Shown: positions 1 through 11,107 of the stretch, one piece after another
Layout of the letters: every line of letters begins with the position of its first letter
Numbering within the stretch: the stretch's first letter is position 1
Assembly: GCA_017963715.1 (NCBI GenBank)
Contig: JAGCTK010000086.1
Location: 1 to 11,107 of the forward strand
DNA length: 11,107 bases
Direction of reading: 5' to 3'
Source: Alphaproteobacteria bacterium
GTDB lineage: Bacteria; Pseudomonadota; Alphaproteobacteria; RF32; CAG-239
Translations under genes and position numbers: made by a program
Notes under the pieces: model-generated
What the model was told of the DNA's origin: nothing
Database searches by the model: none
The model's input: the letters and a program-made list of their open reading frames with translations, nothing else

Positions 1-120
1 AAGAACCATCCGGCTAACGCCGGAGGTATCTCCGTTCCCGCCAAGCTGCGCTTGCCAATCCGACTGAAAGTCGGCTTGGAATTCGCTTTCCACCGGCTGA
101 CGCCAGTGGTCCAAAGCATT
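1..120. other. GC-rich block of tandem small hairpins, cut by window edge
   Basis: About 57% GC by hand count, against about 22% in the following 324 bases. Visible stems are 9-14/19-24 (TCCGGC with GCCGGA, loop TAAC), 21-25/30-34 (CGGAG with CTCCG, mutually exclusive with the first), 42-46/50-54 (CAAGC with GCTTG), 55-65/69-79 (CCAA plus CCGACT, one mismatch, loop GAA) and 90-97/102-109 (CCAC/GTGG around GGC/GCC, loop TGAC). CCAAGC 41-46 can also pair with GCTTGG 74-79. The core GGCTRACGCC occurs in both the first and last hairpin. Frame 1 is open from base 1 to a TGA at 121-123, and the opposite strand is also open, so the 3' end of an upstream gene cannot be excluded, but I recognise no family. 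It could be a palindromic repeat element, the end of a mobile element, or a structured RNA. Its identity is unknown. Confidence 0.5.
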
Positions 121-309
121 TGATGTTATCAACAGTTTTTTTACCTAACAATAAATTTAAAAAAAAACATTGTTGTTTTAGTATATGACTGTGTATGTTG
201 TTGATTATTTTTTATCAACATATTTATTAGAAAAGACAGATATTTTTTATGATGTTTTTTAAAAGGGTTATAAAAATATATGATATATTATAAACATAAT
301 TAACAAGGA

Positions 310-337
310 TGTTGATAATTTATGAACATGTTTATAA
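310..337. promoter_or_regulatory. Cluster of three abutting DnaA-box-like sites
   Basis: TGTTGATAA (310-318, minus orientation), TTATGAACA (320-328, plus) and TGTTTATAA (329-337, minus) lie with one or zero bases between them. Each differs from TTATNCACA only at the sixth position (A for C), the same deviation seen in the boxes at 126, 212 and 288. This suggests a local variant consensus, not chance AT-rich matches. Confidence 0.6.
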
Positions 338-396
338 GTGCCTTAAAAGGATTTAAATATCGAGGATAAAAAGTTAAGGTCGTGGTAAATAAGGTA

Positions 397-432
397 TTTT
401 ATACACAAATTTGTGAGATGTTGTGTATAAAA
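397..432. promoter_or_regulatory. 12-bp inverted repeat carrying two perfect DnaA boxes
   Basis: TTTTATACACAA (397-408) and its exact reverse complement (421-432) flank a 12-base spacer. Each arm contains a perfect TTATACACA box. The repeat ends just before the coaE ribosome binding site (AGAGGA, 433-438). DnaA bound here could act as part of the origin and could also control coaE-dnaQ expression. As RNA it would form a 12-bp hairpin immediately upstream of the coaE Shine-Dalgarno. Confidence 0.6.
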
Positions 433-444
433 AGAGGATAATTA

Positions 445-1032
445 ATGAGTATCGTAGGTATTACAGGTTTAATAGGAAGCGGCAAAACAACCGTCGGTCA
501 AATTTTAAGATCGATGGGGTATGTTGTTTATAATATGGATGTGTGGTGTCGTCAGTTATATAATGATCCTGTTTTTATCGACCGAATTTATCATCATTTT
601 GATTTTTGTTTTGAAAATGGTGTTTTTAACAAAAAAATTTTGAGAAAAAAAGTTTTTGAAAATCAAACGGAATTAAAAAAACTTGAAAATTTAACGCATC
701 CGCAATTAATCAGTCGATTTAAATACACCGTTCATTATTATCGTTTTGAGCCTTATCCAGTTTTTATTGAAAGTGCTTTATTAAAGCAAATGGGTCTTGA
801 TAAATATTGTTCTGATATTATTGAAACAACGGCCCCTGTTGATGTGATGCAAGACAGAGTGATGAAACGTGATCATATCACAAAAGAAGATTATTTGAAT
901 ATATATCATCAGCAAAATCAAAAACAAAATAAGAAGTATCAAAAAAATCATTTTATGATAGACACCAATCAAAACACGCGTATAATAAAAGCTGATTTAA
1001 TAAAGTTATTACAAAGGATTGAACAGTGTTAA
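445..1032 (+). CDS. coaE: Dephospho-CoA kinase
   Basis: This enzyme phosphorylates the ribose 3'-hydroxyl of dephospho-CoA with ATP, the last step of coenzyme A synthesis, in the cytoplasm. The 195-aa length is normal for the family. The Walker A loop GLIGSGKT is at residues 8-15. The usual DAD substrate-binding motif after strand 2 is present as NMD (30-32), so only the last aspartate is kept. The later KRD helix, the Gln-rich lid helix and the terminal FMIDTN (usually a VIDN-like motif) fit CoaE. The ATG at 445 has an AGAGGA site six bases upstream. The 3' end overlaps dnaQ by seven bases, so the two are probably co-transcribed, the arrangement known near the alphaproteobacterial origin. 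Codon use is very AT-rich. Identification is secure at family level, although the altered DAD motif is unusual. Confidence 0.9.
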   Translation: MSIVGITGLIGSGKTTVGQILRSMGYVVYNMDVWCRQLYNDPVFIDRIYHHFDFCFENGVFNKKILRKKVFENQTELKKLENLTHPQLISRFKYTVHYYRFEPYPVFIESALLKQMGLDKYCSDIIETTAPVDVMQDRVMKRDHITKEDYLNIYHQQNQKQNKKYQKNHFMIDTNQNTRIIKADLIKLLQRIEQC

Positions 1033-1706
1033 GAGAAATTGTTTTTGATACGGAAACAACAGGTTTGAGTGCAGAGCAGGGTGACAGACTTGTTGAAATA
1101 GGTGCGATTGAATTGATCAATCATTTGCCGACCGGCCGAACATATCACCAGTATATCAATCCTTTAAGAGAAGTGCCTGAAGATGCTTTTAAGGTTCACG
1201 GTTTATCAACCGAATTTTTGCAAAATTATCCTAAGTTTTCGGATATTGCTAAAGACTTTTTATCATTTGTCGGTGATGACGGAATTTTGGTGGCGCATAA
1301 TGCCGGTTTTGATATGGGTTTTATCAATTATGAATTAAAACACAACGGCTTTGAAACGCTTGAAAAGCACGAAGTGATTGATACATTGCAAATCGCACGT
1401 CAAAAATTTACAGGTGCTCATAACAGTTTGGATGCGTTATGTCGTCGTTTTAAAATAGATAATTCAAAACGAACTTTACACGGTGCGTTGCTTGATGCGG
1501 AGTTGTTATCTGAAGTTTATCTTGAACTTTTAGGCGGGGCGGAACCATCGATGAATTTTGAGGTTAATCACCTTCAAAATGAACCAATGAACAGTGTTCA
1601 AAAACAAAAAAGAGAACAAAGACATTTTTTAATTTCGGCTGAAGAAGAAAATATTCATACCGAATTTTTAAAACAAAACATCACAGATGCCGTCTGGTTG
1701 AAGTAA
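1026..1706 (+). CDS. dnaQ: DNA polymerase III epsilon subunit (3'-5' proofreading exonuclease)
   Basis: DnaQ removes misincorporated bases as part of the replicative polymerase core with the alpha subunit. Three exonuclease motifs of the DEDDh family are seen: Exo I FDTETTGL with Asp8 and Glu10, Exo II HNAGFD at 91-96 with Asp96, and Exo III H152-x4-D157. Residues 1-180 form the nuclease domain. The C-terminal tail of about 45 residues resembles the tail common in alphaproteobacterial DnaQ (acidic helix, then a closing A-x-W). The start is GTG at 1026, supported by AAAGGA at 1013-1018 inside coaE. The start codon lies within the last codons of coaE, which suggests translational coupling. At 226 aa the protein is complete. 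No terminator is visible behind it, and the next gene has its own promoter. Confidence 0.95.
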   Translation: MLREIVFDTETTGLSAEQGDRLVEIGAIELINHLPTGRTYHQYINPLREVPEDAFKVHGLSTEFLQNYPKFSDIAKDFLSFVGDDGILVAHNAGFDMGFINYELKHNGFETLEKHEVIDTLQIARQKFTGAHNSLDALCRRFKIDNSKRTLHGALLDAELLSEVYLELLGGAEPSMNFEVNHLQNEPMNSVQKQKREQRHFLISAEEENIHTEFLKQNITDAVWLK

Positions 1707-10434: not shown

Positions 10435-10494
10435 GGAAGTAATAAAGATAGATTCTTTATTTTGATGAATAAAACAATAAGAAAGGATAAGACA

Positions 10495-11107
10495 ATGAAT
10501 ATAGAAGATTTAGAATATTTAAGAGAAATGGTTGTTAAGAGCGAAACAGAGGATTTTTCAGATGAACAACTACAAAGAATTAGCGGAGCATTACGTACAA
10601 ATGTAAATGCCGATGATACAACAGAGGCTTTAGATTTAACGGCTCAAATAATTTATGAACAGAGTCAATATACGGATAGATTAGGTAATGATAGAAAAGT
10701 TAATAGAGAAAATCTGCATAATTTAACAAAAGAAGTAATCTATTATGGAGAACTTTTGGGTGCAACAGATGCCCTTAAAACAGTAGATGATTTTGATTTT
10801 GCAATGGATGTTAGTAAAGAAAATATTACAGAAAAAAATGCTAATAGAGATAATTCTTTTGGTAATAGTTTTTTGGAATCGTCTTTGTATGCTTCTAAAT
10901 CGCCTGAAGCAATAAAATCTATTATAGACAAAGGTGGTAAATTCAATGATGAAGTAGAGCCTAATCATATAGTTAATATATTATTAGATAGGGTCACATC
11001 AGATTATAATGGTCAATTGGAAGAATTTGGTGAAAACAGCATAAAGAATAATTTAGAAAATTTAGCCGTACTTATTGAAACCAATATGATTGAAAAAACT
11101 AAAGATT
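10495..11107 (+). CDS. Partial gene for an unidentified, weakly ankyrin-like protein (5' part)
   Basis: Open from ATG 10495 to the window end (204 codons, no stop), with AAGGA at 10483-10487 seven bases before the ATG, so the start is well supported. The product is hydrophilic and acidic, has no signal peptide or membrane segment, and begins MNIEDLEYLREMV. Residues 1-118 are predicted mainly helical and match nothing I know. Residues 122-152 (around FLESSLYASKSPEAIKSII, then DKGGKFND) have the helix-turn-helix and GG-x-x-x-N pattern of a degenerate ankyrin repeat. A second one may span 183-200 (LENLAVLIETN). Codons are far more AT-rich than in lysS or mrp (many ATA, AGA, TTA), which suggests recent acquisition. 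Ankyrin proteins are common effectors in host-associated alphaproteobacteria, but that role here is inference. Confidence 0.7.
   Translation, partial: MNIEDLEYLREMVVKSETEDFSDEQLQRISGALRTNVNADDTTEALDLTAQIIYEQSQYTDRLGNDRKVNRENLHNLTKEVIYYGELLGATDALKTVDDFDFAMDVSKENITEKNANRDNSFGNSFLESSLYASKSPEAIKSIIDKGGKFNDEVEPNHIVNILLDRVTSDYNGQLEEFGENSIKNNLENLAVLIETNMIEKTKD

Follow-up and report, generated by a model that had tools for sequence, protein, structure and literature searches.

A very probable chromosomal replication origin beside coaE-dnaQ in a family of uncultured alphaproteobacteria, and an apparent scarcity of CtrA and GANTC sites in one of its genera

Among the described origins with which the present locus can be compared, Cori of Caulobacter crescentus is bordered by hemE and COG1806, according to the section of PMC1914354 that deals with it. 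The locus shares with Cori a length of about 400 bp, several DnaA boxes and a base composition AT-richer than the genome, but not the border genes, which here are coaE and, in most relatives, rho. For the linear-chromosome origin of Cyanothece ATCC 51142, the relevant part of PMC4674748 reports TTATCAACA as a DnaA box and uses it in gel-shift oligonucleotides, a sequence also found at this locus; that origin differs in belonging to a cyanobacterium and in having two boxes (PMC4674748). No treatment of the origin of the family studied here was found in the titles or abstracts of the literature searched.

The window analysed in this study, the whole stretch of 11,107 nucleotides, is contig C216 of a 1.16-Mb genome in 245 contigs (G000). 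The intergenic gap upstream of coaE (Table 1) has the AT-rich intergenic character expected of an oriC, with a GC content far below the 40% of the window. The initial annotation had placed a candidate origin at 121-444, beside coaE and dnaQ, a gene pair which we take to be close to the origin in Caulobacter as well. Both gene identities were borne out by Pfam, and the proposed GC content of about 22% agrees with the 21.6% measured, while the left boundary was slightly off, as a repeat extends to 132 and unique sequence begins only at 133. This repeat of about 130 bp has its three other copies on contigs C110, C187 and C145 of the same genome, with identities of 91-100%, inverted stretches and a common right end, GATGTTATCAA; a Rfam scan of it returned no family at the gathering score. 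It terminates exactly within the first DnaA box, contributing TTATCAA, with just CA coming from the bases beyond. There is no left-side gene in the window, since the contig ends in the repeat, and GC skew is positive along the whole window, matching the expectation right of an origin. At the far side, a reading frame of 215 codons or more (10462-11107) is cut off by the contig end.

Table 1. Features of the gap and its surroundings in the window; conservation is the number of the nine aligned gaps of the genus with TTATN[AC]ACA at the aligned position
Feature	Position	Strand	Conservation	Remarks
Intergenic repeat	1..132	.		four copies in genome, outside conserved origin; right end gives TTATCAA of first DnaA box
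DnaA box TTATCAACA	126..134	+	7/9	at repeat junction
Unique AT-rich gap, proposed replication origin	133..444	.		21.5% GC; conserved in relatives
DnaA box TTATCAACA	212..220	+	3/9	
Most AT-rich part of gap	221..300	.		85-88% in 40-bp windows
DnaA box TTATAAACA	288..296	+	8/9	
DnaA box TTATCAACA	310..318	-	1/9	shifted look-alikes in relatives
DnaA box TTATGAACA	320..328	+	4/9	left half of 18-bp back-to-back inverted pair
DnaA-like box TTATAAACA	329..337	-	9/9	right half of 18-bp pair; sole site kept throughout genus
Exact DnaA box TTATACACA	399..407	+	8/9	
Exact DnaA box TTATACACA	422..430	-	7/9	inverted partner of 399-407
coaE, dephospho-CoA kinase	445..1032	+		Pfam PF01121
dnaQ-type exonuclease	1026..1706	+		Pfam PF00929

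We observed eight TTATNNACA sites in 121-444, namely two exact TTATNCACA and six TTATNAACA; nine boxes had been counted before, of which the two exact ones stand, and the near-perfect ones number six instead of seven. In 1000 dinucleotide shuffles of this stretch the mean was 0.39 and none got to eight, and the seven TTATN[AC]ACA sites of the unique part (133-444) compare with a mean of 0.205 and a maximum of 3 in 5000 such shuffles, so that the gap holds the DnaA-box cluster well above chance that an oriC is expected to have. Chance matches in AT-rich DNA would be favoured by a gap of 78% A+T, but a count unreached in either set of shuffles and the conservation of the box sites among relatives make this explanation practically negligible. 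Across the genome TTATNAACA occurs 88 times in 1.16 Mb, with six in 500 bp here (and a seventh at 525, within coaE) versus two in the best 500 bp of any other contig; the motif-density check proposed with the candidate therefore turned out in its favour, the motif not being equally dense elsewhere. The broader pattern TTATNNACA showed no enrichment over the whole genome, with 201 occurrences versus 193 for the reversed control pattern.

For comparison, coaE was located in 48 of the 57 genomes searched, and the best 30 of these 48 loci were retained, comprising the window, eight from its genus, 20 from elsewhere in its family and one from elsewhere in its order. Boxes were counted over the fixed last 400 bases upstream of coaE (324 in the window), the ORF-bounded gaps of L017 and L019 being spuriously short, and three to eight TTATN[AC]ACA sites were found in each of the 30 gaps. 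A divergent rho start lies on the left of the gap in 27 of the 29 relatives (24 by start pattern, in addition to G014, G015 and G029), and in G009 the left-hand gene is rho by Pfam. The two relatives in which this border was not observed are G022, where the contig ends, and G002, in whose gap-bearing contig no rho start was found. In the latter, which is of the same genus (L014), a tRNA-Arg replaces rho on the left and parS is found toward coaE, indicating that the origin border was rearranged. One further locus, L203, from a record titled Candidatus Gastranaerophilales, carries a coaE with 52% identity to the window's copy and seems to come from a misbinned contig.

Ten contigs of six relatives were scanned for AT-rich DNA in 400-bp windows (GC <=30%, steps of 50), and the coaE-upstream gap was the top AT-rich window in all six gap-bearing contigs, with four to eight boxes each. 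The GC-skew minimum lies 0.5-5.9 kb from the coaE start in five of these six contigs (G020, 0.5 kb; G009, 1.0 kb; G031, 1.2 kb; G023, 4.7 kb; G002, 5.9 kb), of which G009 and G002 are from the genus of the window; skew was computed on partial contigs for G031 (260 of 347 kb), G021 (140 of 267 kb) and G020 (140 of 222 kb). The contig of G021 has no minimum, its skew being positive on either side. The genome of G023, whole in five contigs, has one deep within-contig minimum, which is beside coaE, in addition to a maximum in C2 at 333 kb and a shallow dip in C1 at 19 kb. Moreover, parS-type sites (GTTNCACGTGNAAC) were detected in 28 of the 30 genomes searched, and exact GTTTCACGTGAAAC sites are situated 5.8-16.7 kb toward rho in five of the six contigs and at 9.7 and 69.8 kb toward coaE in G002. 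The parS/ParAB neighbourhood expected of an oriC is hence found within 17 kb in all six contigs, on the rho side in five, and G009 carries gidA, parA and parB on that side. In the window's own genome the parS-type sites are on a separate contig, C122.

These data bear on two alternatives. The cluster could belong to a promoter region through which DnaA regulates coaE-dnaQ and rho, the origin itself lying elsewhere; in most relatives the gap separates two divergent promoters, and the exact boxes at 399 and 422 stand immediately upstream of coaE. With skew minima and parS located here in five of six contigs, and with no other AT-rich window of the same contigs equal in box number, we regard this as highly unlikely. 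A datA-like titration site, near the origin but not the origin itself, would fit the many non-canonical boxes and skew minima as far as 5.9 kb off, yet no second, denser cluster is found by the skew minimum in the six contigs and both the AT-rich core and its position are conserved family-wide, which renders it very improbable indeed. Counted against an origin are the missing skew minimum of G021, the atypical border and parS side of G002, the poor conservation of box 310 (1/9) and box 212 (3/9), and the position of dnaA, which does not adjoin the gap (56 kb off in G023). The comparison nevertheless supports the clustering, position, conservation and, in relatives, the skew; with a conserved place between coaE and rho, skew minima and parS in relatives and the densest box cluster, the candidate put forward in the initial annotation is supported, and 133-444, plus the box at the repeat junction (126), is very probably the chromosomal replication origin, adjoining coaE-dnaQ.

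Taken as a whole, the best explanation, in which we are highly confident, is an origin at 133-444 that DnaA would open and that CtrA and CcrM probably do not gate directly. In the proposed mechanism, DnaA would first bind the presumably strong exact boxes, the inverted pair 399/422 close to coaE, and would then fill the presumably weaker TTATNAACA sites, among them the invariant half-palindrome at 329. The resulting filament would open the AT-rich part at about 221-300, which is suggested as the strand-opening place, and forks would depart in both directions. The sequence AACATGTTTATAA (325-337) occurs once in the window's genome. Of the 29 gaps that have a coaE-side box, 19 show a full seven-letter match 68-71 bp away from it (G014 is the one gap of the 30 without such a box), and the sixth letter of these matches is A in 15, T in four and C in none. 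Five six-of-seven matches with C at position 6 (G018, G020, G022, G025, G032) contradict a strict no-C rule. We read the site at 329 as a probable retained weak DnaA site; if true, a low-affinity DnaA site would be the most constrained part of the origin.

The preponderance of TTATNAACA had been taken as a hint of a lineage-specific DnaA preference. TTATNAACA occurs 29 times in the nine gaps of the genus, where 1.6 copies are expected, and 45 times in the 21 gaps of other genera, where 2.4 are expected; it is the sole strongly enriched one-letter variant of TTATNCACA within the gaps; at position 6 in the 21 other-genera gaps, T was recorded five times (2 expected) and G was absent. With enrichment both within and outside the genus, A at position 6 is a trait of origins throughout the family. 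The DnaA signature RDHTTVMHAVRK, part of a stretch of domain IV that presumably contacts DNA, is found in 28 of 29 DnaA proteins, the 29th (L081) being truncated ahead of it. With the variant family-wide and the signature canonical in all 28 intact proteins, the suggested preference is not supported.

What sets the genus apart is rather its scarcity of CtrA and GANTC sites. TTAA-N7-TTAA was counted 39 times (4 expected) in the gaps of the other genera, 17 of the 21 containing it, and the other TTAA spacings from 3 to 15 are close to expectation, save 8 (10 vs 4.4). Nineteen of these 39 motifs, about half, overlap a DnaA box, suggesting that CtrA probably blocks DnaA at the origin there. The nine gaps of the genus contain one such motif versus 2.5-2.6 expected, with none in the window's gap, which accordingly lacks the CtrA sites of a Cori-type origin. 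Likewise, GANTC was observed 50 times in other genera versus 10.8 expected, 19 of their 21 gaps having at least one, whereas the genus has a single copy in its nine gaps, with 3.5 expected. Among A-type sites, TTATTAACA makes up 26 of 45 in other genera versus four of 29 in the genus, where TTATAAACA accounts for 16 of 29. In the DnaA tree (29 rows, midpoint root, the order-level row being long and unsure) the genus forms one clade with support 100/99 nested in the family, so that loss of the sites is the simpler reading. As for GATC, none was found in the 30 origin gaps versus 12 expected; it is at 13-43% of expectation in the ten contigs of relatives that were tested, suggesting a genome-wide avoidance in the family, and since it is scarce in all ten, its absence is not special to the origin.

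A loss of ctrA itself in the genus was considered and rejected, as seven of 11 genomes (G001, G002, G003, G004, G006, G008 and G009, incomplete in G001 and G002) gave long matches that are 87-89% identical to the protein of G023. Fragments are located at contig ends in G000 (94%) and G005 (82%); no match was obtained in G010 or in G007, a genome 59% complete. The gene gcrA is present in nine of the 11 genomes (not found in G001 and G010) and ccrM at full length in eight (not found in G002, G007 and G009), whereas recognition of chpT (PF10090) was too weak to be used, with 12 of 34 genomes above the cut-off. The CtrA DNA-binding domain is nearly identical between the genus and the others among the 12 proteins listed.

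It could be argued that the scarcity reflects sampling or composition instead of lost control. The nine gaps are one clade, so that a single event enters the tally nine times; the counts are little below expectation (1 vs 2.5 for CtrA, 1 vs 3.5 for GANTC); four gaps of other genera (G018, G021, G022, G027) likewise lack an exact CtrA motif in the 400 bases before coaE; and the ctrA promoter offers no usable positive control, being weak, with six sites in 21 other-genera promoters (1.8 expected) and none in six of the genus (0.5 expected), after two of 29 loci (L297, L309) were left out for want of a start. Set against this, the genus has a higher chance expectation per gap than the other genera, whose spacing-7 excess is about tenfold; the DnaA tree places it within the family; and the loose motif is also without excess in the genus (9 vs 11). 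In 20,000 random draws of nine gaps from the 30, three had one CtrA site or none, but with the nine being one clade this again amounts to a single event. We consider sampling or composition unlikely, yet to be reckoned with. As both the CtrA motifs and the GANTC excess are gone in the genus, neither CtrA nor CcrM probably exerts direct control over initiation there. It is tentatively proposed, at slightly less than even chances, that the origin of this genus was freed from direct CtrA and CcrM control by the change of a composite CtrA/DnaA site, TTATTAACA, whose ancestral TTAA would be a CtrA half-site, into plain TTATAAACA, with CtrA, GcrA and CcrM kept for other genes and the invariant site non-canonical and probably weak.

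The probable origin would give this uncultured alphaproteobacterial family a mapped starting point from which read coverage could be used to estimate growth. It would also offer a natural contrast, the same gap with and without CtrA and GANTC sites and with the regulators mostly kept, for comparative tests of the role of CtrA. Compared with known systems, the other genera of the family resemble Cori in carrying TTAA-N7-TTAA motifs too, and Cori has five CtrA sites versus no exact one in the window's gap, as far as the section on Cori in PMC1914354 goes. The genus is closer in this respect to Sinorhizobium meliloti, which keeps CtrA in the genome and has a chromosomal origin without CtrA motifs according to the pertinent part of PMC4433202; there it was shown by ChIP, whereas here it is read from sequence alone, with sister genera retaining the motifs. 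The predicted origin of Ehrlichia ruminantium is likewise given without a CtrA site despite a conserved CtrA, in an intracellular member of the Rickettsiales with other border genes (the passage on it in PMC1914354). From these two precedents, as those parts of PMC4433202 and PMC1914354 describe them, an origin without CtrA sites despite the presence of CtrA is not new. The comparison thus gives good support for what would be an ordinary bacterial origin whose border genes are unlike those published for Caulobacter; what seems to be new is the genus-level scarcity of CtrA and GANTC sites, which are retained at the origin in related genera.
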